DNA from: Oscillospiraceae bacterium
Lineage (GTDB): Bacteria; Bacillota; Clostridia; Oscillospirales; Oscillospiraceae
Assembly (NCBI GenBank): GCA_009783555.1
Contig: WRDH01000019.1
Location: 1 to 50,490 of the forward strand
Reading direction: 5' to 3'
Length of the DNA stretch: 50,490 nucleotides
Shown piece by piece: positions 19,107-50,490 of this stretch. Below the pieces are notes generated by a model. That model did no database searches. It saw nothing but the letters and a program-made list of their open reading frames with translations, and had not been told where the DNA came from. The stretch's first letter is position 1. Every line of letters begins with the position of its first letter. Made by a program: the position numbers and the translations under genes.

Positions 19107-22796
<3,690 letters not shown>

Positions 22797-28957: not shown

Positions 28958-31348
28958 ATGCCAAGTTATAAATTAAGTTTTGATACTCTTGGAGAATCGA
29001 CCATGATGTACAATACAGACAGCGCGTGGTCTGTTTCCGAATCGGCCTTTAACAAGAGTTACCAAGGGAAATATGAGTCCATATTCTGTTTGGGAAACGG
29101 ATATATGGGCATTCGTTCGTCCCATGAAGAAAGTTACACCGGGCAAACACGGGGGATGTTCATTGCCGGAACCTTCAACCGTTTTGGTGAAGCCGAGGTA
29201 TCGGAGCTTCCGAACGCTGCCGACCTGATATCAATGGATATTCGCTTAAATGGAGAAGAACTTAATCTCGAAACGGGAAAAACCCTCCACTACAATCGTA
29301 GCCTAAACCTAAAAAGTGGTTTGCTTGAGCGTGATGTAAAGTGGGAGAGTCCAAAAGGTATAGCCGCTTCTTTTAGATTCGAGCGATTCGTTTCTCTTGC
29401 AAACCTGCACACACTTGCGTAGAGAGTGACCATTACACCGGATGCGGATGCGGATATTATCATTAGAAGCGGAATCAATGGTGCAGTAACAAACTCGGGT
29501 ACACAGCATTTTTCCGAAGGCGAGAAGCGTTTCTACGACAAAAAGTATTTGCAATATGTGCAAACAACAACACAGCACAGGATTGATTTTGTGTTTACAT
29601 CAGGAATTGAATTGGCATTAAATAGTAACTCTGTTGATATACAGCCATTTATCAGTATGGAACGACGCAAACTGTTTAGTGTGTACACAATTCCCGTCAA
29701 AAAAGGCGAGTCTCTTACAATAACAAAAATCTCTTACGCCGCTACTTCATTTGATAAAGAGTATACGGATAAAACCACAAGGGAGATTCAAGAAGACTGT
29801 TTAGCCAAGCTCAAAGTGCAATGTAGTAAAGGTTATAATGCTCTATTCGAAGAGAGTTGCGCAAAATGGGATGAGCTCGTTTGGGATAATGTACCGATAA
29901 CAATAGAATCCGATAATAATTTTGATCAACTTGCAATAAGGTTCGCTCAATATCATTTACAAATCATGGCTCCGGCGCATGACTCAAGATTGAGCATTGC
30001 AGCCAAGGGTTTGTCCGGCGAAGGGTATAAAGGTCATACGTTTTGGGATAACGAGATTTTTACACTGCCGTACTTCACGTTTACACAGCCGCAAATCGCC
30101 CGCAGCATGTGTTTGTACCGCTTCCTCTCATTGGAAGGTGCTCATAATAAAGCAAAAGCAAATGGTTTGACGGGAGCAATGTACCCTTGGGAATCGGCAA
30201 GGCTCGAAGAAGGTGAGGTTACACCTATCTGGGGTGCTGCCGATATTGTCACGGGCGAGCCGATAAAGATTTGGTCAGGCTTCATACAACTGCATATTTC
30301 CGCTGATGTAGCCTTCGGGATATGGCAGTATTATATGATGACAGGTGATAAAGACTTTATGCAAAAGTATGGTTATGAAGTCATCTTAGATACCGCGATA
30401 TTCTGGGCATCCAGATTTGAATATGACGAAAACGATTCTAAGTACCACATTAACGGAGTAATGGGACCGGACGAATACAAAGAACATATAGATGATAACG
30501 CATTCACTAACTATATGGCGCATTGGAATATTAAGAGAGCAATGGAGTCCTACACTTCGTTAATGAAGGAAAACCCTGAGCTGTTTGACAGCCTGAACAA
30601 GAAGCTTGATCTGGATAAGAATTACAATAAGTTTATAGAAATCATTGATAAAATATACCTGCCGCAACCAAGGCAAAAGGATTTGGTTGTTCCGCAAGAT
30701 AAAACATACCTGTCTAAAAAGGATATTGATCTTACTATATACAAAAATCAAAAAAATGTATGTGAGATTTTCAGGGATTACAACCTTGTACAGGTGAATG
30801 GAATACAGGTATCAAAACAAGCGGATATCATGATTTTGTTCTTACTGCTGGAGGATTTGTTCTCGGCGGATGTAAAAAAAGCAAATTGGGATTATTACGA
30901 ACCGCGTACACTTCACGACTCTTCTCTTTCACTGTCAACACACGCAATCCTTGCTGCTGATATGAAAGATCGTGCGCTTGCAACGGATTTGTTTAACAAA
31001 TGCGTACAAATCGACTTAGGCGAAAATATGAAATCATCAGATGCAGGAATCCACACAGCCTCCATCGGCGGAATGTGGCAGGTTGTTGTCTACGGCTTCG
31101 GCGGAGTCAGGATGATAAACGGAAAGCTGCGGATATCTCCGATACTTCCCGATGCATGGAAAAGGCTTCACTTTTATTTTTACCGGCACGGTCAAAGGCT
31201 ATCAGTAGATATAACACATGATGAAATCAACATAAAAAACCTGACAGGCACAGATGAAATCGCATTGGACTTAAACGGTGAAGAAGCTGTGCTTATTGAT
31301 GAATTCCGGAAAAGCTTAAGAAGGGTGCAACAAAAAAATGAAGATTGA
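28958..31348 (+). pseudogene. GH65 disaccharide phosphorylase (maltose/kojibiose type), interrupted by an amber codon
   Basis: The reading frame encodes about 796 residues of a GH65 family phosphorylase, which cleaves an alpha-glucoside with phosphate to beta-glucose-1-phosphate. The N-terminal part has YQGKYESIFCLGNGYMGIR; the catalytic (alpha/alpha)6 part has GHTFWDNEIFTLPYF and the general-acid motif MGPDEYKEHIDDNAFTNYM; the C-terminal part has HTASIGGMWQVVVYGFGGVR. A single TAG at 29420-29422 interrupts it in frame (LANLHTLA*RVTITPD), at the beta-sandwich/linker boundary region. Nothing else is damaged, so the mutation is recent, read through, or a sequencing error. GTG 29426 could restart translation. 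TAG ends several other genes here, so it is not recoded. Substrate specificity cannot be read. Confidence 0.85.
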
Positions 31349-42800: not shown

Positions 42801-44489
42801 CGGGAAATGAACCTGATAGTAAAGGTTGAAGATACCGGCAGAGGGCTTAAAGAAGAGCACATAGCAACACTCTTTGACGAGTTTACCCGGTTTGAAATGG
42901 ACAAAAATGTTGATAATGAAGGAACAGGTTTAGGTCTATCCATAACACATAACTTTGTTAAGCTTATGAACGGCGACATCCGTGTTGAGTCGGAATACGG
43001 CAAAGGTTCTGTCTTTACTGTTGTTCTACCTCAAGGCATAGTCAACAATGAAAAAATAGCTGTGGTCAATGATTCTGATAAGAAAAATGCACTGATACTG
43101 GAGCGGCGTGAATTTTGCATGACATCATTAACAAATACGATGAATGATTTGGGTGTAAAATACAAGTTTGTGTCCTCACTTTCAGAGTTTCATGAGGAAT
43201 TGACCGGCAACAGGTACGCTTTTGGTTTCATTGAGGCTTCTTTATATGAAAACTTCAAAAATGAATATGGGGGTAAAAAGACCAAATCCTCAATATGGCT
43301 TATCTCGGAATTTGGTGACACAATTACGGAGCAAAACTTACATGTTATAACCACACCGATTTTTTCAATTCCGCTGGCAAACATACTAAACGGTGTTTCC
43401 GATACATTTTCCCATGTATTCGACAGAAAGACCGAAGCAGGATTTAGGGCACCGGAATCAAAGGTTCTGATTGTTGATGATATAAACATGAATTTAGTAG
43501 TGGCAAGAGGTCTTATACAGCCCTACAATATACAAATTGATCTGTGTTCCGGCGGTGCCGAAGCCATTGCAGCAATGAAAACCGGGTATTATGACTTGGT
43601 ATTTATGGATCATATGATGCCGGAAATGGATGGCGTTGAAGCAGTGGCGCATATTAGGGCGATGGCAGCCGAAGACCCGTATTACTCACAGGTACCTATT
43701 ATTGCATTAACCGCAAACGCTGTAACCGGAACAAGGGAAATGTTTTTGGAAAACGGGTTTAATGATTTTCTGTCAAAACCTATTGACACAGCTAAACTGA
43801 ATGCAATACTGCAAAAATGGATACCAAAGGAATTACAAATAGATAAGAAGGATAAATATTTACATTCGCCTGAGTATGAATCAGGTGAATGTATTGTAAT
43901 TGCCGATGTTGATGTAAAAAAAGGTATATCCATGACCGGCGGAACAATCGAAAATTACCGCAGTGCGTTAACTGTATATTGCAAGGACGGATATGATAAA
44001 ATAAAAGAAATAGAGACATGCGTAGACAACAAAAATATACAATTATTTACAACATATGTTCATGCATTAAAGGGTGCATCCGCCAGCATTGGAGCCGACA
44101 GCTTGTCCATTGCCGCCGGGGACTTGGAAACAGCGGGACTTCGTGGAGATATAGATTATATTCACGCGCAAACTCAGAAGTTCTTAACAGAATTTAATGA
44201 ACTGCTTCAGAATATTAACGATGCATTATCATGTGAAGAAGGCAGCCCCAATCTTGTGACTCCCATCGATATGTCATCTCTAAAACCCAAACTTATTAAG
44301 CTAAGAGTAGCTTTGGTTGGCTACGATACACCAACAATAAACGAGACAACAAAAAATCTTCAAAGCTTCACCAACGACCCCGTCATAGGCGATAAAATCA
44401 ACAACATTTTACAGTATATACTTGTTGGTGAATATGATGAGGCTGTTTCACTGATTAATAAGTTATTATCAGAGGGACGGGTTGTTTGA
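39810..44489 (+). CDS. dCache hybrid histidine kinase with receiver and HPt domains
   Basis: A 1559-residue membrane sensor: N-terminal helix (about 28-52), a very long extracytoplasmic region (about 55-655) of dCache type with repeated YxxNGxR-like and Trp-rich segments, second helix (about 662-690), HAMP-like linker, PAS (about 735-835), HisKA (MSHEIRTPMNAILG), HATPase (NLLSNAVKYT, DTGRGL, GTGLGLSITHNF), a pseudo-receiver without an acceptor Asp (about 1085-1205), a true receiver (VLIVDDINMN; DLVFMDHMMPEMDG; LSKPI) and HPt (HALKGASASIG). The ligand is probably a small molecule. The last residues (EGRVV) come from out-of-frame reading of a nucleoside-hydrolase gene remnant, so the native C-terminus has been replaced. 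Neighbours include the Sia-like operon downstream. Confidence 0.92.
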   Translation: MNKKKAVGINSRGPGRLLNRINLKLRPKLILIFLAATVVPIVLLTTIALSQIMFLGNTLRGIAVNDATNALSDGSRESKERLTTDLTMAVAGFLRQRDNDILLLADLASQASQEISVQSVRDRNFSGLIAFSDNKQGMLVHPGEWVISDDGMTWVEVDPFRFAPADNVSQNVENNDELFGSAFRNRPPEFFGQYQENVPLYDEITFVDLNGYEIFKYINPDSKKIHYPLNPNPVDISDRYNTYVRAENYWEELQSLQRGGIYVSSVIGAYVGTNYIGMFTPGVLTSEDPAIMNQNHPNLEELRRIGNLPMHEFMEYARRQSFAGFENPVGQRFEGIVRWGTPVYENGVRVGYVTMALNHDHIMEIVDYINPMLGRYSLLPSPHDGNYAFIWDYKSRSICHPRHNSIVGYNPLTGEPQVPWLEGTIELRRDFVNGGFVLDENDRVIPVLDADGNTRPAQDTPFYFWQNAGGAEWLAANSTWEDFNLSSIRNNGKNWWEWETPVDATAVSWGEFYGENVDNREILPQFGERKLKDPDGNYIIGADGNYILDYASRAKTPARALTAAGFVGLDGRYLNNAPQCTGWMNLTENGGSGSFYILWSGIYKPTTAGAIPYYTGQYSPDVQGNKRGFAFVTVGAGIDDFMVPAFYMEEKLTYAINADLRQSIIQFAMITILLWALVTIIAVFLSSYLTGNINLLLGGISRFRSGQRHFRIRADIKDEFGILANSFDEMADNIVDSVGAVLVIIDMDRKIIYANNPALTVMNKTLDEIAGISYNDVSIYPKNSEYDPIAALHEEREAGILFIEENGNYYKGTANYLFGQHGEKAGYIIVTNDVSDIVKKEKAEEANRIKSSFLARMSHEIRTPMNAILGMAELALREEMSDSVRDFTATIKQAGVNLLDIINDILDLSKIENGSFDILSEEYMLSSLINDVISIIRTKALDARLRFVVNVDCDMPSTLKGDMVRIRQIMLNLLSNAVKYTDRGQISYSISQEIINEREMNLIVKVEDTGRGLKEEHIATLFDEFTRFEMDKNVDNEGTGLGLSITHNFVKLMNGDIRVESEYGKGSVFTVVLPQGIVNNEKIAVVNDSDKKNALILERREFCMTSLTNTMNDLGVKYKFVSSLSEFHEELTGNRYAFGFIEASLYENFKNEYGGKKTKSSIWLISEFGDTITEQNLHVITTPIFSIPLANILNGVSDTFSHVFDRKTEAGFRAPESKVLIVDDINMNLVVARGLIQPYNIQIDLCSGGAEAIAAMKTGYYDLVFMDHMMPEMDGVEAVAHIRAMAAEDPYYSQVPIIALTANAVTGTREMFLENGFNDFLSKPIDTAKLNAILQKWIPKELQIDKKDKYLHSPEYESGECIVIADVDVKKGISMTGGTIENYRSALTVYCKDGYDKIKEIETCVDNKNIQLFTTYVHALKGASASIGADSLSIAAGDLETAGLRGDIDYIHAQTQKFLTEFNELLQNINDALSCEEGSPNLVTPIDMSSLKPKLIKLRVALVGYDTPTINETTKNLQSFTNDPVIGDKINNILQYILVGEYDEAVSLINKLLSEGRVV

Positions 44490-44520
44490 AGATTTGTTCC
44501 GTACATTAGCGGATGTTTAA
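44474..44520 (+). pseudogene. 3' remnant of a nucleoside hydrolase gene
   Basis: Read from 44476, this stretch encodes DGLFEDLFRTLADV then TAA. The intact nucleoside hydrolase downstream ends DALFEDLFRTLAEACTN (DNA 49893-49934). The two 42-nt stretches match at 34 positions, and nearly all differences are synonymous, which shows shared coding ancestry. Here the frame is overrun by the hybrid kinase, whose stop (TGA 44487-44489) lies inside it. Confidence 0.7.
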
Positions 44521-44707: not shown

Positions 44708-44765
44708 AAGATCATTCCTTTTTCATGATCTTTTATGTCTGATGTTAAACAAAAGGAATGATCTT
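44708..44765 (+). promoter_or_regulatory. 15-bp inverted repeat in the leader of the Sia-like operon
   Basis: AAGATCATTCCTTTT (44708-44722) and AAAAGGAATGATCTT (44751-44765) are perfect inverted arms around 28 nt. The right arm includes the AAAGGA ribosome site of the lipoprotein gene, so the RNA hairpin could mask translation initiation or act as an attenuator. Confidence 0.6.
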
Positions 44766-44769
44766 CAAA

Positions 44770-45699
44770 ATGCAGAACAAAAGACAAATTCATTTTAAAC
44801 GATTTTGGTTAACAGCAGTTGCTTTGATTTTGTTCGTTATGCTAATGGCTTGTACAGAAACCGGAGTAAACACACTGCCGGCCGTTTCCGATTATATGCC
44901 CGATGAGATTGTTGAAATCAAAGACTTGAGAGTGGGAGTTGTATCAGGACCATATTGGGATATGTTCGCTGAAGCGATATTACCATCGCTTCAGCAAATG
45001 GGGTATACCGCAACCTTCGTTTATTACCATGACTACGCCAGTCCTAATTTTGCATTAGCACGAAACGAAATAGACCTGAATGTATTTCAACATTATGCGT
45101 ACTTGAATACATTTAAGCTCGAAAACGATTTGGCTTTGACGGCGGTTATGGAAATTCCGACGATTTCCATGAGTATATTCTCCAATCGTTTTTCATCACT
45201 GGACGAGATAAAAGCGGGTATAACCGAATCTATACCCACCGGTATAACCGCATCTATTCCCGATGATGCCAGCAATCTCGCCCGTGCACTGCGGGTTTTG
45301 GAAGATGCGAACCTAATCACATTATGTCCGTCTATTGATAAATCAAGAGCAGTATTAGCTGATATTTCTTTAAATCCCTATAATATACAAATAACACCGG
45401 TTTCGGCTCATCAACTGGTAGAGTTTTTTTATAACTATTGCATATCTGTTATTCCCGGAAATTTTGCAATAAGCAGCAACTTGAATCTTGCTGAAGCACT
45501 TTACAGAGAGTTACTGACCGCAAACTACTATATTGTTGCAGCAGTCCGGACTGAGGATTTAAACAAGCAATTTGTCAGGGATATTATCGACATCATTTAC
45601 TCGGAAAGTTTTCGGGATGTTATCGTAGATCCTGACGGGAGTTATGCTTTGTTTCAATGGCCGCGCTGGTTACATGATGCCGTAAGTGTTTCAAGGTAA
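44770..45699 (+). CDS. MetQ/NlpA-type substrate-binding lipoprotein
   Basis: The 309-residue lipoprotein has a signal (MQNKRQIHFKRFWLTAVALI, lipobox LMAC, Cys about residue 27) followed by an NlpA/MetQ-type binding fold: IKDLRVGVVSGPYWDMFAEAI, LARNEIDLNVFQHYAYLNTF (hallmark near residues 98-117), IPDDASNLARALRVLEDANLI and PVSAHQLVEFFYNY. No permease or ATPase gene is in the window, so it may serve as a sensor partner instead of a transporter part. ATG 44770 has AAAGGA about 12 nt upstream; ATG 44758 is too close to that site. The stop lies 4 bp before the SiaA-like gene, indicating one transcript. The ligand (methionine-like or another amino acid) is inferred. Confidence 0.88.
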   Translation: MQNKRQIHFKRFWLTAVALILFVMLMACTETGVNTLPAVSDYMPDEIVEIKDLRVGVVSGPYWDMFAEAILPSLQQMGYTATFVYYHDYASPNFALARNEIDLNVFQHYAYLNTFKLENDLALTAVMEIPTISMSIFSNRFSSLDEIKAGITESIPTGITASIPDDASNLARALRVLEDANLITLCPSIDKSRAVLADISLNPYNIQITPVSAHQLVEFFYNYCISVIPGNFAISSNLNLAEALYRELLTANYYIVAAVRTEDLNKQFVRDIIDIIYSESFRDVIVDPDGSYALFQWPRWLHDAVSVSR

Positions 45700-45703
45700 T
45701 ATT

Positions 45704-47269
45704 ATGAGTATTTCAAAAAAACTGTACTTTGGATTTGCAATTGGAACCCTGCTAACAATAATAGTGGGTATCGTCGGGATTATCGGAATGCAAAACCTGC
45801 GAATATCCGGGTTGTCTATGTATGAGCAGCAAGTCGTTGGTATCGAAAAAGCGGGAAGAGCATTATCGGCGTTTGAAAACGTGCGTTTGAATTGCAGGAC
45901 GATTGTAATTCACAGCTTTTACGATGATAAGAGGGAAGCTCTTGATGTCAAAATCCAGTTTGAAAGCAATGTGGAAGAGTTCAGGGAACTGATGAAAATC
46001 AGCAAAGAGCTTTCAACATCTGATGAACTGCTGCGCTTTAATGAAGTTATAATGGATATGTTTGATAACTCATACCTGCCGATTGCCGGACAAATAATTG
46101 AGAGAAGTATAAACGATATCCCCGATCATAATAACAGACTTCATATCAATGTTATGCTTACCCATATAAATGACATATCTGACTGGATTGCGAACTTAGT
46201 GACCGGTATGATGGAGTTAAATGTAGCTATAGCCGAGCAAACCAGTATTGAAAATGAAGTATTAACGCTGACATATATTGCGGTACAGACGGCATTGCTT
46301 GTTGTAAGTGCTGTTTTTGCACTGCTTGTGGCATTATATATTATCAGAAGCATTATGAAACCGATTAATGAATCAGCGGATGTGCTGAGTAAAATTTCGA
46401 CCGGAAACTATGAGGCAAGGATAGAAGGACAATACAACGGCGAGTTTGTTAAAATAAAGAATGCTGTTAATTCTATGGCGGTGGACATTAAAGCAAGAGA
46501 ATTGACGATTTCAGGCATCACTTATGCAGGTAAAATACAAAGAAGCCTGTTACCGCCGGATAAGGTCTATGAAAGTGCTTTTTCTGATTATTCGCTCATA
46601 TACAGACCTAAGAATATTGTGGGCGGAGATATTCATTGGATAAAAAACTTCGATGATGGTACACTCTTGTGTGTGAGCGATTGCACCGGACACGGAACAC
46701 CGGGCGCACTTTTAACAATGCTCGTCGTTTCCTCGCTTAGGTCAATTACTAATGAGAATAATTACAAAGACACTGCCGCTATTGTATGGGAACTTGAAAA
46801 ATCACTTTTAACGACACTTAATCCGAATAATGCCGGAGACGCAAAAGATGGTTGTGATCTTGCTGTATTGTTTATTGCCGATGACGGTACGATTAGTGTA
46901 TCAGCAGGGAATATTGATGTTTTCGTCTGTGACGGAGTTAAAGTTACACGGTACAAAGGTCAGGCAATTCATGTCGGCGAAGGAGAAATCCAAAATAAAG
47001 ATGAAATTAAGGTAATTACTATACCGGCTGATATACGTAACAAATACTACATTGCATCCGACGGGCTTTATGAGCAGATCGGCGGTGATGAGAAGTTGCC
47101 GTTCGGGTATGAGACACTGGAAAATATTGTCCTTAAAAACCACGATGCCGGGCAAAATGTGATAATTGAGAAAATTATGCAGGCATTTGAAAGCTACAGA
47201 GGCGAAGAGCTGCAACGGGATGATGTTTCTCTTATAGCCTTTCAGCCAAAGATAAAGGAGAAAAAGTAA
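45704..47269 (+). CDS. SiaA-like membrane PP2C (SpoIIE-type) phosphatase with HAMP domain
   Basis: 521 residues: N-terminal helix (about 8-29), an extracytoplasmic helical sensor (about 30-185), second helix (about 190-213), HAMP (about 214-268), then a PPM/SpoIIE phosphatase opening with GKIQRSLLPP and containing GGDIHWIKNFDDG, DCTGHGTPGALLTM, SDGLYEQIGGD and RDDVSLIAF, i.e. the metal-binding Asp set. This is the SiaA layout known from Pseudomonas, where SiaA dephosphorylates SiaC. The frame opens earlier (45686), but ATG 45704, with AAGG upstream, is the natural start, 4 bp after the lipoprotein stop. SiaB-like and SiaC-like genes follow directly. Sensing the adjacent binding lipoprotein is inference. 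Confidence 0.92.
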   Translation: MSISKKLYFGFAIGTLLTIIVGIVGIIGMQNLRISGLSMYEQQVVGIEKAGRALSAFENVRLNCRTIVIHSFYDDKREALDVKIQFESNVEEFRELMKISKELSTSDELLRFNEVIMDMFDNSYLPIAGQIIERSINDIPDHNNRLHINVMLTHINDISDWIANLVTGMMELNVAIAEQTSIENEVLTLTYIAVQTALLVVSAVFALLVALYIIRSIMKPINESADVLSKISTGNYEARIEGQYNGEFVKIKNAVNSMAVDIKARELTISGITYAGKIQRSLLPPDKVYESAFSDYSLIYRPKNIVGGDIHWIKNFDDGTLLCVSDCTGHGTPGALLTMLVVSSLRSITNENNYKDTAAIVWELEKSLLTTLNPNNAGDAKDGCDLAVLFIADDGTISVSAGNIDVFVCDGVKVTRYKGQAIHVGEGEIQNKDEIKVITIPADIRNKYYIASDGLYEQIGGDEKLPFGYETLENIVLKNHDAGQNVIIEKIMQAFESYRGEELQRDDVSLIAFQPKIKEKK

Positions 47270-47270
47270 A

Positions 47271-47837
47271 ATGTTTGATATGATGGAATACCACAAAATG
47301 TTGCGTGAGAACAAAATAACACTCATTTACAGCGGCCCGTTATGGGCGGAGGGTATCGGCGGAGTTGCGGGGACGGTTAAAAAACGTTTGGAATTTGATA
47401 AGCTGCCGCTGGAAGCATCACAAGAAGTCTTCTCGGTTTTTGTTGAACAAATGAATAATATGCTGATGTATTCGCAGGAAACTGAACAGTTTACTGCACC
47501 GGATGAGTTGCACTCCGAGGCTCCGAAAGGCACGTTTATCATGGGTACACAGGGTAAAGGGTATTTCATTCAGACCGGAAATGTTATGAAAACCGAAGCG
47601 GTCAACAGAGTTAAAACGCGGATAGACCACTTGAATACACTCGATAAAGACGAAGTAAATAATTATTACTGGGAACAATCCTTGCTTGATAACCATGATC
47701 CGGAGAGTAAGGGTGCAGGTCTCGGACTTATAGAAATAGCGCGTCGTATCAGTTCTAAAATTGAATATACGTTTAGACAATATGACGAACACCACACGTT
47801 TTTCACTATGTATGTTTTGATAGGAGGACAGGAGTAA
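47271..47837 (+). CDS. SiaB family protein kinase (DUF6272)
   Basis: 188 residues with a degenerate HATPase fold. EVFSVFVEQMNNMLMYSQE (about residues 45-63) occupies the N-box position, and SKGAGLGLIEIARRISSKI (about 145-163) is the glycine-rich box; no HisKA part. This matches SiaB-type kinases, which phosphorylate the STAS-like partner SiaC on Ser/Thr, opposing SiaA. The ATG follows the SiaA-like stop by 1 bp, and the last base of its stop is the first of the SiaC-like ATG (47837), so all three are tightly coupled. No membrane part. Confidence 0.9.
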   Translation: MFDMMEYHKMLRENKITLIYSGPLWAEGIGGVAGTVKKRLEFDKLPLEASQEVFSVFVEQMNNMLMYSQETEQFTAPDELHSEAPKGTFIMGTQGKGYFIQTGNVMKTEAVNRVKTRIDHLNTLDKDEVNNYYWEQSLLDNHDPESKGAGLGLIEIARRISSKIEYTFRQYDEHHTFFTMYVLIGGQE

Positions 47838-48217
47838 TGGCATTTAGATTGAAGCGTGAAAAGACCGATTTAACGCCGTACGTATTAATCGACGAAGAAA
47901 ATGGATACATGAATCTTGAGGGTGAGAGCTACCATGAGAATATTTACGAGTTTTTCAGTGAAATTAAAGAATGGCTGGATGGGTATTTAAACACGGATTT
48001 TGAATCGTTTACTTTTGACTTTGAACTAAAATACTTCAACAGCTCTACTGTGCGAATTCTTTTGGGTATGTTGCGGGACATGGATAAATCGGCGTGCGTC
48101 GGCAACATATCGGTCAATTGGATTACAGCAAAAGGTAATAAAATTATCATTGAATGCGGCGAGAAATTCCAAGAATGCTTGAAAAACTTGAAGATGAACT
48201 TTATTATTAATGAGTAG
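47837..48217 (+). CDS. SiaC family regulatory phosphoprotein (DUF1987)
   Basis: A 126-residue STAS-like protein: TPYVLIDEENGYMNLEGESYHEN, FFSEIKEWLDGYL, then FTFDFELKYFNSSTVRILLGML (about residues 60-81). The Ser/Thr pair in NSST corresponds to the phosphorylation region of SiaC. In Pseudomonas, unphosphorylated SiaC binds and activates the diguanylate cyclase SiaD. Here no GGDEF gene follows; a winged-helix regulator does, after 15 bp. The gene is coupled to the SiaB-like gene by a 1-nt overlap. Confidence 0.9.
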   Translation: MAFRLKREKTDLTPYVLIDEENGYMNLEGESYHENIYEFFSEIKEWLDGYLNTDFESFTFDFELKYFNSSTVRILLGMLRDMDKSACVGNISVNWITAKGNKIIIECGEKFQECLKNLKMNFIINE

Positions 48218-48232
48218 TTAGGATGTGAGGAA

Positions 48233-48934
48233 TTGGGAGGTTTATTCAGCAAGGAGCAGAAGATACTTGATGATGCCTTAAGCCATGTCGGCGAAATTAA
48301 GAATGGTTTGCCTGTTAATGCGGGTCATTTTGAAGCACTTGTTAATGAATACGCGTTATTCCTGGAAGAGCAGCAGCAAATTCTGGAAATCTCCGACAAG
48401 GCCTCGGTAGGATTACTTCATGAGCAAAAGAACAAAGCTGTACAGATTGACGGACTAAAAAGCGAATTGCATCAAGTGATGGAAAATCTTCATAATTCGG
48501 TAAAAACATCGCAGGAAAAGAAAGTGTATGTACAGACCTTCGGTAATTTTGAAGTGTTTGTTGATGGAAGACCTCTTCGCTTTGCCCGCACAAAGACTAA
48601 GGAATTGTTTGCATATCTTGTGATGAGAAGAGGCGCGCGATGTAATAATAATGAGATAGTTGCAGCAATTTGGGAGAACAAACCGGACTCACCCACTTTA
48701 CAAAGTCAATACCGGCATTTAGTTTCGGATTTGACGAAAACACTAAAATCTGTAAACGCTGAAGATGTGCTGATTAAACAACGCGGCTCTTTGGCAATAA
48801 TACCGGAAAAATTGTCATGCGATTTGTACGATTTCTTCACCGCTGATACTGATGCTGTAAGTAATTATATGGGTGAATTTATGACACAATACAGTTGGGC
48901 TGAATTTATTAACGCACGTCTGGATAAAATGTAA
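48233..48934 (+). CDS. SARP-type winged-helix transcriptional regulator with N-terminal stalk helices
   Basis: The 233-residue protein has two parts. Residues about 1-95 are helical: HFEALVNEYALFLEEQQQIL, EISDKASVGLLHEQ and a heptad-like stretch QIDGLKSELHQVMENLHNSV, resembling the linker helices before GGDEF domains. Residues about 98-195 form an OmpR/SARP-type winged helix (VQTFGNFEVFVDGRPLRFAR, TKTKELFAYLVMRRGA, NNNEIVAAIWE, LQSQYRHLVSDLTKTLKSV), followed by a very short BTAD-like end (GEFMTQYSWAEF). There is no receiver. In this operon position it replaces SiaD, so it is the probable output of the SiaABC-like switch. TTG 48233 is the start, with AGGA/GAGG sites upstream; no better in-frame ATG exists before the helices. 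Confidence 0.85.
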   Translation: MGGLFSKEQKILDDALSHVGEIKNGLPVNAGHFEALVNEYALFLEEQQQILEISDKASVGLLHEQKNKAVQIDGLKSELHQVMENLHNSVKTSQEKKVYVQTFGNFEVFVDGRPLRFARTKTKELFAYLVMRRGARCNNNEIVAAIWENKPDSPTLQSQYRHLVSDLTKTLKSVNAEDVLIKQRGSLAIIPEKLSCDLYDFFTADTDAVSNYMGEFMTQYSWAEFINARLDKM

Positions 48935-48973
48935 GCACTGTGTAAGCGAATAATGATTGAGAGGACAAACGGA

Positions 48974-49948
48974 ATGATATTTGAAACTCCTGATGGTTGG
49001 AACATAAAACCGGAGGTCAACGCAACCTCTGTTTCAGCACTTATACGGCGGTTGGAGAAGCCGAAAGGAACGGTCGACGTTGTTATTGACACGGACACAT
49101 TTAACGAAATCGATGATCAGTACGCTCTTGCTTATCTTATAAAGAAGGAGAAGAAACTCAATCTCAAGGCAATTTATGCTGCGCCATTTTTTAACGAAAA
49201 GTCTACCGGACCCGGTGACGGTATGGAGAAGAGCTTTAACGAGATTAATAAGGTATTATCATTGATGGGTCGCGATGACCTTAAAACGATTGTTTTCAAA
49301 GGCTCGGACAGGTATCTGCCCTCTGAAACCGAACCGGTTATTTCTGACGCTGCAAAACATCTTGCCGAATTAGCTTCAGCTTATTCTTCAGAAAAGCAAC
49401 TATATGTCATTGTTATCGGAGCTATTACGAGTATTGCTTCTGCCTTGCTTATTGAGCCTGATATTAAAGACAAAATCGTTGTTATCTGGCTCGGCGGTAA
49501 CGCACACGACTGGCATACAAATGCAGAGTTTAATCTTTCTCAAGATGTTGCGGCTGCGCGGGTTGTTTTTGGTTGCGGCGTACCTTTGGTACAGCTTCCT
49601 TGTATGGGCGTAGTGTCAGCGTTTACAACCGGTGGTCCCGAGCTTGAGTATTGGTTGCGTGGTAAAAATGATCTATGCAACTATCTTCTGGATTCTACTG
49701 TAAAACAAGCTCTTGAAGACGGAGGGCTGCCTACATGGACACGGGTAATATGGGATGTTACCGCAGTCGCATGGCTGCTTGATGGCGAGTTTATGCTTGA
49801 CCGTTTGGAGCCAAGCCCCATTCCGGAGTACGATCATCATTATGCCTTCAACAAAACGCGCCATCCGATACGATATGTGTATCACATCAATCGGGACGCG
49901 CTGTTCGAAGACTTATTTCGCACATTAGCGGAGGCTTGCACTAACTAG
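48974..49948 (+). CDS. Nucleoside hydrolase (IUNH family)
   Basis: A 324-residue cytosolic hydrolase cleaving N-glycosidic bonds of nucleosides. The calcium-binding motif is present as VVIDTDTFNEIDDQYALAYL (about residues 36-55), a variant with longer spacing than DTDxGxDD. IVVIWLGGNAHDWHTNAEFNLSQDVAAARVV (about 160-190) is the substrate region with the conserved Asn and Asp, and WDVTAVAWLL (about 257-266) holds the last ligand Asp. ATG 48974 has GAGAGG about 9 nt upstream; ATG 48953 lacks a site. The 3' end (49893-49934) is duplicated as a remnant at 44474-44520. It follows the Sia-like operon by 39 bp and could be co-transcribed. Confidence 0.9.
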   Translation: MIFETPDGWNIKPEVNATSVSALIRRLEKPKGTVDVVIDTDTFNEIDDQYALAYLIKKEKKLNLKAIYAAPFFNEKSTGPGDGMEKSFNEINKVLSLMGRDDLKTIVFKGSDRYLPSETEPVISDAAKHLAELASAYSSEKQLYVIVIGAITSIASALLIEPDIKDKIVVIWLGGNAHDWHTNAEFNLSQDVAAARVVFGCGVPLVQLPCMGVVSAFTTGGPELEYWLRGKNDLCNYLLDSTVKQALEDGGLPTWTRVIWDVTAVAWLLDGEFMLDRLEPSPIPEYDHHYAFNKTRHPIRYVYHINRDALFEDLFRTLAEACTN

Positions 49949-49955
49949 GCATATG

Positions 49956-50147
49956 CTACAATATTTCCATATCTGCAAGAAACTCACTCGGAGTCATAAT
50001 AATTGGCTCGTCCGGGAAGTGCTTTGTGTTGCCTGTTATTAAGACCGCTCCACTTGCTATTGCTGTGTCATAGAAAATACGGTCACTTCCATGTTCTGAG
50101 ATAGCTGAAGATACAAGTACATTTGTGTCAATAACGACCCGTTTCAC
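49956..50147 (-). pseudogene. PIN-family toxin with internal in-frame deletion
   Basis: Only 63 residues. The start MKRVVIDTNVLVSSAISEHG is the N-terminal strand and first acidic residue of PF13470-type PIN toxins (normally about 130-140 residues). The sequence then jumps directly to DRIFYDTAIASGAVLITGNT and KHFPDEPIIMTPSEFL, the C-terminal third. About 65-75 central residues, including conserved acidic metal ligands, are missing, though the frame is intact. GTG 50147 overlaps the antitoxin stop by one base (TAGTG). RNase activity is unlikely. It may persist because the antitoxin is kept, or be a very recent deletion. Confidence 0.75.
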
Positions 50148-50461
50148 TAATGACCTCTTTTTTCACTTCGGCCTTCTGTAATGATACTGTTGATTTCATC
50201 TAGCGACATATCAGACACTCCATTTTGTTTTGCTTGTGAACGTGCTTCACTAAGAGCTTTTTCCAAAGATGCATTCCGCTTTACTTTCGGTTGAAACGGT
50301 AGAGCTTCCTCCATCAGACATTGCTTTAGAAACATATTCACTGCGGTACTAATATTCATACCCATGCTATCAAACAGTACCTCAACATTTCGCTTTACTG
50401 TTTCATCCACTCTCACATTGATAGTAGTGGTGGTTGACACCGCTGTTGCTGCCTGTGGCAT
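50147..50461 (-). CDS. RelB/DinJ-family antitoxin
   Basis: The 104-residue antitoxin has a ribbon-helix-helix N-terminal domain: TTINVRVDETVKRNVEVLFD, then SMGMNISTAVNMFLKQCLMEEALPFQP (about residues 30-56), the classic RelB/DinJ pattern. The C-terminal tail (MSLDEINSIITEGRSEKRGH) would wrap the toxin. ATG 50461 is preceded by GGAGGTGAAATT; the longer frame from 50479 starts inside that ribosome site. It is normally autoregulatory. It is coupled by a 1-base overlap to a PIN toxin, a pairing seen in Clostridia, but here the toxin is internally deleted. Confidence 0.9.
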   Translation of the reverse strand: MPQAATAVSTTTTINVRVDETVKRNVEVLFDSMGMNISTAVNMFLKQCLMEEALPFQPKVKRNASLEKALSEARSQAKQNGVSDMSLDEINSIITEGRSEKRGH

Positions 50462-50490
50462 AATTTCACCTCCAAACAAGTGTGTATACA

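Follow-up and report, generated by a model that had tools for sequence, protein, structure and literature searches.

A proposed Sia-type partner switch with a predicted SiaC-docking stalk on a DNA-binding output protein in an Oscillospiraceae bacterium

In the Sia switch of Pseudomonas, SiaC acts on the stalk of SiaD and the output is the synthesis of cyclic di-GMP (PMC8457831). What does such a switch control in an operon without a GGDEF gene? This question is raised by positions 44770-48934 of the stretch analysed here (the window; 50,490 nucleotides of contig WRDH01000019.1, Oscillospiraceae bacterium), which belongs to a draft metagenome-assembled genome (MAG) of 79 contigs that is 92% complete. 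Five intact open reading frames (ORFs) are tightly packed there, with gaps of 4, 1, -1 and 15 bp (Table 1). We propose, with a probability of about 0.7, that the locus encodes a Sia-type partner switch in which the output enzyme was replaced by a transcription factor via a domain swap, acting through the mechanism set out below.

An earlier note, made from the letters of the window, had read the five genes as a binding lipoprotein, a SiaA-like phosphatase, a SiaB-like kinase, a SiaC-like phosphoprotein and a SARP-type regulator without a receiver, and had suggested a Sia switch rewired to a DNA-binding output. The ORFs confirmed the spacing. The first four identities passed the cut-offs of the broad families, and the Pseudomonas equivalogs stayed below theirs. 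The absence of a GGDEF gene from the operon was borne out by Pfam and the ORFs. For the last gene, the winged helix and the missing receiver were found as described; it did not hold up as a plain regulator, as residues 1-91 of its product match a SiaD-type stalk. The proposed rewiring gained support from this predicted docking stalk and from a reciprocal charge change.

The output protein

Judged by sequence comparison, the first 91 residues of the last protein correspond to the stalk through which SiaD-type cyclases dock SiaC. The region was recovered with E=6.5e-20 by a profile built from 21 other stalks, the window excluded; among 5000 shuffles the lowest value was E=0.96, and no other window ORF of at least 60 codons came under E=0.001. 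In the AlphaFold2 model, the predicted local distance difference test (pLDDT) is 82-92 across residues 1-80. The alignment of stalks shows that the ISDK core is retained. In the second Sia operon of the same genome and in two congeners (G176 and G008), the equivalent region lies in front of GGDEF, directly downstream of SiaC. An ordinary, unlinked transcription factor was considered for the last gene and was ruled out by the stalk.

Behind the stalk lies a SARP-type winged helix, which shares 64% identity over the aligned domain with the receiver-bearing SARP regulators L004 (G176, same genus) and L117. Residues 81-233 are 60% identical to receiver-bearing regulators. The last gene is under every Pfam cut-off, and the NCBIfam AfsR match is weak (E=2.8e-5). 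Searched by sequence in the PDB, the protein matched EmbR (E=5.2e-4) and, more weakly, AfsR (E=0.05). Residues 95-193 of the model align to OmpR/PhoB-type DNA-binding domains with middling Z scores of up to 5.3. Pfam Response_reg and a local hidden Markov model (HMM) gave no receiver in the last protein. No GGDEF domain was found in it or elsewhere in the operon, and the protein was not classed as SiaD.

Other SARP-domain ORFs, collected from 64 loci, carry a receiver in 59 of 62 cases and a stalk in none of the 62. The stalk of the window protein is placed where the receiver would stand. Five candidates for further receiver-less proteins were rejected: L117 is cut at a contig edge, L015 has half a receiver, L090 is the remnant of a broken kinase/regulator, L188 is a fragment interrupted by a stop, and L189 is a short ORF with the winged helix only.

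The closest winged helices belong to regulators in G176 and in a genome of the Treponema group. Neither a receiver-bearing regulator of this kind nor a close kinase was found in the genome of the window, at its 92% completeness. Outside this genome, no match spanning stalk and winged helix was found in 300 genomes of the family, 19 of the genus and 22 bearing Sia loci, nor in 195 genomes of the family of Treponema G809, 295 of the order of G805 and 126 of the class of G821; these sets overlap, the larger groups were sampled, and query range was the sole criterion for matches without a locus. Taken literally, SiaABC and the winged-helix gene are thus unlinked in the other genomes searched, a finding that the earlier note would have counted against its proposal. 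We do not take it as a refutation, because the link is a docking domain inside the protein, and relatives bear the stalk on other outputs, such as the kinase beside a SARP gene in Treponema (L064).

Charges at the predicted SiaC-stalk interface

In the crystal structure of SiaC with SiaD, T68 of SiaC contacts S82 and Q86 of SiaD, and D79 is paired with R74, E110 with R84 and R80, and D114 with K77 and R74 (PMC8457831). Phosphorylation of T68 blocks the binding, and SiaC binding converts SiaD from an inactive oligomer to an active dimer with a parallel stalk dimer (PMC8457831). Since the stalk set resembles Pseudomonas SiaD only weakly when compared directly (E=0.1 to 7e6g, over its positions 56-100), the contact positions were transferred through the common ISD(K/R) motif, and the comparison is reliable only as far as that transfer. 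It comprises 24 SiaC/stalk rows, one for the window and 23 drawn from 20 loci. Three sequences stand in two rows each: the SiaC of L061, the SiaC of L081 and the L075 stalk. Excluded were the frameshifted L082, L084 with the same scores as L083, L088 with a SiaC truncated by the end of its locus, the fragmented L089 and, from the phylum, L130, L132 and L134-L139.

The net charge of SiaC positions 109-119 is +1 in the window versus -2 to -6 in the 23 other rows, and that of stalk positions 73-84 is -3 versus +2 to +4. Position 110 of SiaC is D or E in 45 of 46 non-redundant SiaCs and K in the window only. Position 114 is D or E in 42 of the 44 SiaCs with a residue there; the exceptions are F in a distant SiaC and C in the window. 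Window SiaC also has R at the equivalent of D79, facing E74 of the stalk. According to these alignments, the salt-bridge charges are reversed or neutralised on both partners of the window pair. SiaCs and stalk proteins number two each in the genome, and either Sia operon encodes one SiaC with one stalk protein; the second stalk protein is a GGDEF protein (contig C33), so there is something for the window pair to be insulated from. We infer that window SiaC and the regulator form a private, insulated pair, separate from the canonical SiaC/SiaD of the same cell.

Several observations weigh against the proposed switch. Unrelated chains score better against the stalk set than SiaD (7e6g) does, the link of the stalk set to SiaD runs via GGDEF relatives, and the window stalk has one recognisable SiaC motif versus two in SiaD. 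The R at the D79 equivalent is also present in L062, L071, L080 and L081. Window-specific changes of SiaC are not enriched in alpha-3 (positions 103-119), where they fall on 2 of 11 conserved positions versus 6 of 58 elsewhere (Fisher p=0.38), so that the charge argument is built on two SiaC positions and the stalk of a single pair. The winged-helix part of the model has low confidence (pLDDT 38-64 past residue 90, predicted template modelling score 0.28), and the fusion of stalk and winged helix is one instance in one MAG.

The absence of enrichment across the whole alpha-3 stretch is also what a lost interaction might leave behind, the SARP gene being a neighbour without SiaC input while the stalk and SiaC surfaces drift. 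The long branch of window SiaC (0.346 versus 0.047-0.21 in L033, L058, L059, L061, L062 and L064) points the same way; the more distant SiaCs of L075 and L087 have branches as long. However, the charges on both partners are reversed rather than randomised, the ISDK core, the NSS site of SiaC and the catalytic motifs of the SiaA-like and SiaB proteins are kept, and the intact ORFs stand close together. We therefore regard loss of the interaction as improbable. Still less probable is an artefact of assembly or binning, in which a chimeric contig joins a stalk-GGDEF gene to an unrelated SARP gene. Such an error would fit a fusion seen once, in an incomplete draft of many contigs, but the reading frame runs through the join, which coincides with a domain boundary, the fused gene follows SiaC at 15 bp, and the adjoining SiaC bears the matching charge change, which is unexpected from a chimera.

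Input side and proposed mechanism

The lipoprotein matches Pfam Lipoprotein_9 (E=3e-47) and the MetQ-type PDB entry 7mbz (E=7.9e-43). No transporter genes accompany this NlpA/MetQ-type lipoprotein in the operon, and we propose it as the ligand-binding input. The phosphatase is above the Pfam cut-offs for 4HB_MCP_1, HAMP and SpoIIE. Its PP2C domain matches SiaA (6k4e, E=2.4e-27) and retains the GGD, DCxGHGxPGAL, DG and QRDD stretches with the aspartate motifs; the NCBIfam equivalog for Pseudomonas SiaA gave 150 bits, below the cut-off of 700. The kinase belongs to the NCBIfam SiaB family kinase NF038262 (153.7 bits, cut-off 85; PDB 6kko_A, E=1.7e-9) and stays below the Pseudomonas SiaB equivalog (81.7 bits, cut-off 225). 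SiaC matches Pfam PF09345 (E=1.9e-31, 108.7 bits, cut-off 24.5) and PDB 6kko_C (E=2.9e-12), with 77.3 bits for the Pseudomonas SiaC equivalog (cut-off 150). Its residues N68-S69-S70 align to N67-T68-S69 of 6kko_C/6k4f, which places the acceptor after the conserved Asn.

In chemoreceptors, domains of the four-helix bundle (4HB) type dock binding proteins. A 4HB domain was found in five of the ten phosphatases scanned with Pfam (window, L058, L064, L081 and L085). Since a lipoprotein-like gene precedes each of these five, lipoprotein and 4HB sensor look like one input cassette. The lipoprotein is of the NlpA type in the window, L064 and L085. L081 has a Bmp-type lipoprotein (from Pfam on L140, which covers that place), and the lipoprotein of L058 is counted as Bmp-type because it resembles the one of L081. 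Among the phosphatases of 25 loci, the sensor region of the window matches only the two other NlpA-linked ones (L085, E=1e-70; L064, E=5e-62); the NlpA ORF of L085 is short, with the middle of the protein absent. No GGDEF gene was seen in the available DNA of the three NlpA-linked loci. Their outputs are the stalk-winged helix protein in the window, a stalk-LytS kinase beside a receiver-SARP gene in L064 and a stalk-hybrid kinase in L085.

In the proposed mechanism, the ligand-bound or ligand-free lipoprotein would act on the 4HB sensor of the phosphatase. Phosphatase and SiaB-like kinase would set the phosphorylation of Ser69 of SiaC, as expected from the family and the conserved motifs. Unphosphorylated SiaC would dock on the stalk of the last protein, to which the stalk homology and the reciprocal charge change point, and phosphorylated SiaC would fail to do so. 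As SiaC dimerises SiaD, it may here pair two copies of the regulator, whose winged helices would then bind DNA jointly and alter transcription. The reversed charges would keep this pair apart from the canonical pair of the same cell.

The sign could be the opposite, with SiaC docking keeping the winged helices inactive or off DNA and phosphorylation of SiaC releasing the regulator, which is how classical sequestration switches work. The same docking evidence applies to it, and the sequence does not fix the sign. OmpR/SARP-type domains work in pairs, which counts against this alternative. The activation of SiaD by SiaC through a parallel stalk dimer also speaks against it (PMC8457831). We consider the opposite sign unlikely. 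It seems somewhat more probable than not to us that the stalk is a portable SiaC socket, which these bacteria attach to outputs that function in pairs (winged helix, hybrid or LytS kinase, class III cyclase and diguanylate cyclase). In this genome it would connect an extracellular ligand with a promoter in a single step, via a serine phosphoswitch that targets the DNA-binding protein directly, and its charge-reversed interface would be orthogonal to the second Sia system of the cell.

Similar to SiaABCD of Pseudomonas aeruginosa, the window encodes a PP2C phosphatase, SiaB, SiaC and an output with an N-terminal stalk in one operon, with conserved catalytic motifs and phospho-acceptor position. 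It differs from SiaABCD in its winged-helix output, the reversed interface charges, Ser instead of Thr as acceptor, the added binding lipoprotein, one docking motif instead of two and scores below the NCBI equivalog cut-offs. The congener operons (G008 C27, G176 C10 and C33 of the same genome) possess the same core genes, with SiaCs 66-70% identical and the same N-terminal stalk 35-44% identical, but have GGDEF, the usual interface charges and other sensor regions. The SARP-type response regulators of L004/L036 (G176) have the same DNA-binding domain and C-terminal tail, at the 64% identity given above, but carry a receiver where the window has the stalk, and L036 adjoins a LytS-type histidine kinase. 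Treponema L064 resembles the window in the NlpA lipoprotein, the matching 4HB sensor and the SARP-type regulator beside them. There the path would pass through a histidine kinase and a receiver, whereas in the window the stalk is joined straight to the DNA-binding domain. L064 resembles an extended form of this design and the window would be its short circuit, although the window's winged helix has its nearest relatives in G176 and the Treponema-group genome.

In RsbU/RsbW/RsbV and SpoIIE/SpoIIAB/SpoIIAA, a PP2C phosphatase and a kinase set the phosphorylation of a STAS-like protein controlling transcription. In those switches sigma is released by the STAS protein, with the kinase serving as the anti-sigma factor, whereas the STAS-like protein of the window would dock directly on a DNA-binding protein. 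PMC8256260 bears on such switches.

Sia loci elsewhere, flanking DNA and significance

A SiaC alignment search of genome contigs gave 32 loci. A stalk-GGDEF protein is present in 16, a stalk-hybrid kinase in three (two beside GGDEF), and a stalk-class III cyclase and a stalk-LytS kinase in one each; two loci have GGDEF without a detected stalk, and 11 have no stalk gene in the available DNA. These calls rest on local HMMs, plus Pfam for L060, L064 and L085, and some genomes hold several loci. Tabulated by stalk, as the earlier note had proposed for Sia neighbourhoods, the outputs in 30 genomes comprise 31 matches in 19 of them, with GGDEF commonest (24), followed by hybrid kinase (four), cyclase, LytS kinase and winged helix (one each, the last in the window alone). 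Assignment by hand was used for a GGDEF protein whose beginning is identical to that of one in a different genome, for a paired kinase and GGDEF in G176 and for a frameshifted GGDEF of G821. The stalk-hybrid kinases perhaps feed the partner switch into a two-component phosphorelay, and the Sia switch of L060 possibly controls cyclic AMP or cyclic GMP. Treponema L064 combines the NlpA lipoprotein, matching sensor, SiaC and SiaB with the stalk on its LytS-type kinase and an adjoining receiver-SARP gene.

Ten loci elsewhere in the phylum neighbour GGDEF, GGDEF-HD (Pfam, L136) or kinase genes, and no SARP-domain match was found in these ten; in L132 the kinase is also neighboured by an ordinary response regulator. 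On a Fibrobacteria contig (L089/L113), pieces of SiaB and SiaC share the contig with kinases and a receiver-SARP regulator, which makes it another Sia locus close to a SARP-type pathway; the genes are fragmented and the stretch is partly masked. SiaC was found in three of 400 genomes sampled from the family, all within one genus of 106, and above the cut-off in ten of 398 sampled from the phylum, including the genome of the window. All 32 relatives are recorded as MAGs, assigned to Oscillospiraceae, Defluviitaleaceae, Clostridia, Treponema/Spirochaetaceae and Fibrobacteres. Most of them presumably come from termite guts, judging by isolate codes such as Emb289, Lab288, Co191 and Nt197 and by the species name Fibrimonas termitidis. 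PMC7024585 agrees with this reading of the codes. Horizontal transfer of Sia loci between phyla is likely.

Upstream of the operon, the Shine-Dalgarno-like AAAGGA of the lipoprotein gene lies inside the second arm of a perfect inverted repeat. The hairpin has a minimum free energy of -22.6 kcal/mol (z -2.73; one of 200 shuffles equally good), and its arm occurs elsewhere in the genome at no exact site and at two sites with one mismatch. It is possibly an operator or a means of masking the ribosome-binding site, which would control translation of the lipoprotein gene. A 45-nt direct repeat (44474-44518 and 49893-49937) is 80% identical. The copy at 44474-44518, just upstream of the operon, is left over from the 3' end of the gene for a nucleoside hydrolase (48953-49948) and overlaps the end of a hybrid kinase ORF. 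The operon may have been inserted beside a duplicated gene end.

Further genes of the window were assigned by eye. A glycosyl hydrolase family 65-like gene (28958-31348) is split by a single in-frame stop (29420-29422) into two ORFs of the same frame. A protein of 1229 aa (19107-22796) seems to combine iron-sulfur/hydrogenase-like sequence with PAS, histidine kinase and receiver regions and is possibly a redox or hydrogen sensor. A small RelB/DinJ-like antitoxin ORF is located at the end of the window (50147-50479, minus strand).

Table 1. Positions of the Sia operon, its predicted functional sites and stalk genes of other loci
Feature	Position	Strand	Remark
NlpA/MetQ-type substrate-binding lipoprotein	44770..45699	+	alternative ORF start 44758
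SiaA-like transmembrane 4HB-HAMP-PP2C (SpoIIE) phosphatase	45704..47269	+	
SiaB-family kinase of SiaC	47271..47837	+	
SiaC-family phosphoprotein	47837..48217	+	
Phospho-acceptor equivalent Ser69 of SiaC	48041-48043	+	alignment to 6kko_C/6k4f
Altered contact residue Lys110 of SiaC	48164-48166	+	
Altered contact residue Cys114 of SiaC	48176-48178	+	
Stalk-winged helix protein	48233..48934	+	233 aa; TTG start
Predicted SiaD-type stalk, residues 1-91	48233..48505	+	helices 4-23 and 30-91
Predicted charge-swapped docking motif EEQQQILEISDK in stalk	48365-48400	+	
SARP-type winged helix (residues 95-193) and short BTAD-like tail (194-233)	48515..48931	+	
Perfect 15-bp inverted repeat	44708..44765	+	arms 44708-44722, 44751-44765
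Stalk-hybrid histidine kinase	L034 7488-9557 = L061 7160-9229		
Stalk-hybrid histidine kinase	L081 6384-8543		
Stalk-hybrid histidine kinase	L085 2866-5025		
Class III adenylate/guanylate cyclase with stalk	L060:1185-2039	-	convergent with SiaC

Known partner switches act on transcription through the release of sigma factors, and the action of SiaC on a stalk is known as well; new, as far as the literature searched shows, is the predicted SiaC-docking stalk on a DNA-binding domain. An eLife article of 2021 proposes, in general terms only, that DUF1987 proteins modulate adjacent proteins. No SiaC-controlled DNA-binding protein was found in the literature searched, subscription papers and preprints excepted. 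If true, docking of a SiaC-type protein on a DNA-binding protein would be a further route from a partner switch to transcription. The reciprocal charge change would be a natural example of a duplicated signalling pair becoming insulated. The census of outputs suggests the SiaC-docking stalk as a general adaptor, and it would be the domain to seek wherever a SiaC gene has no adjoining cyclase.

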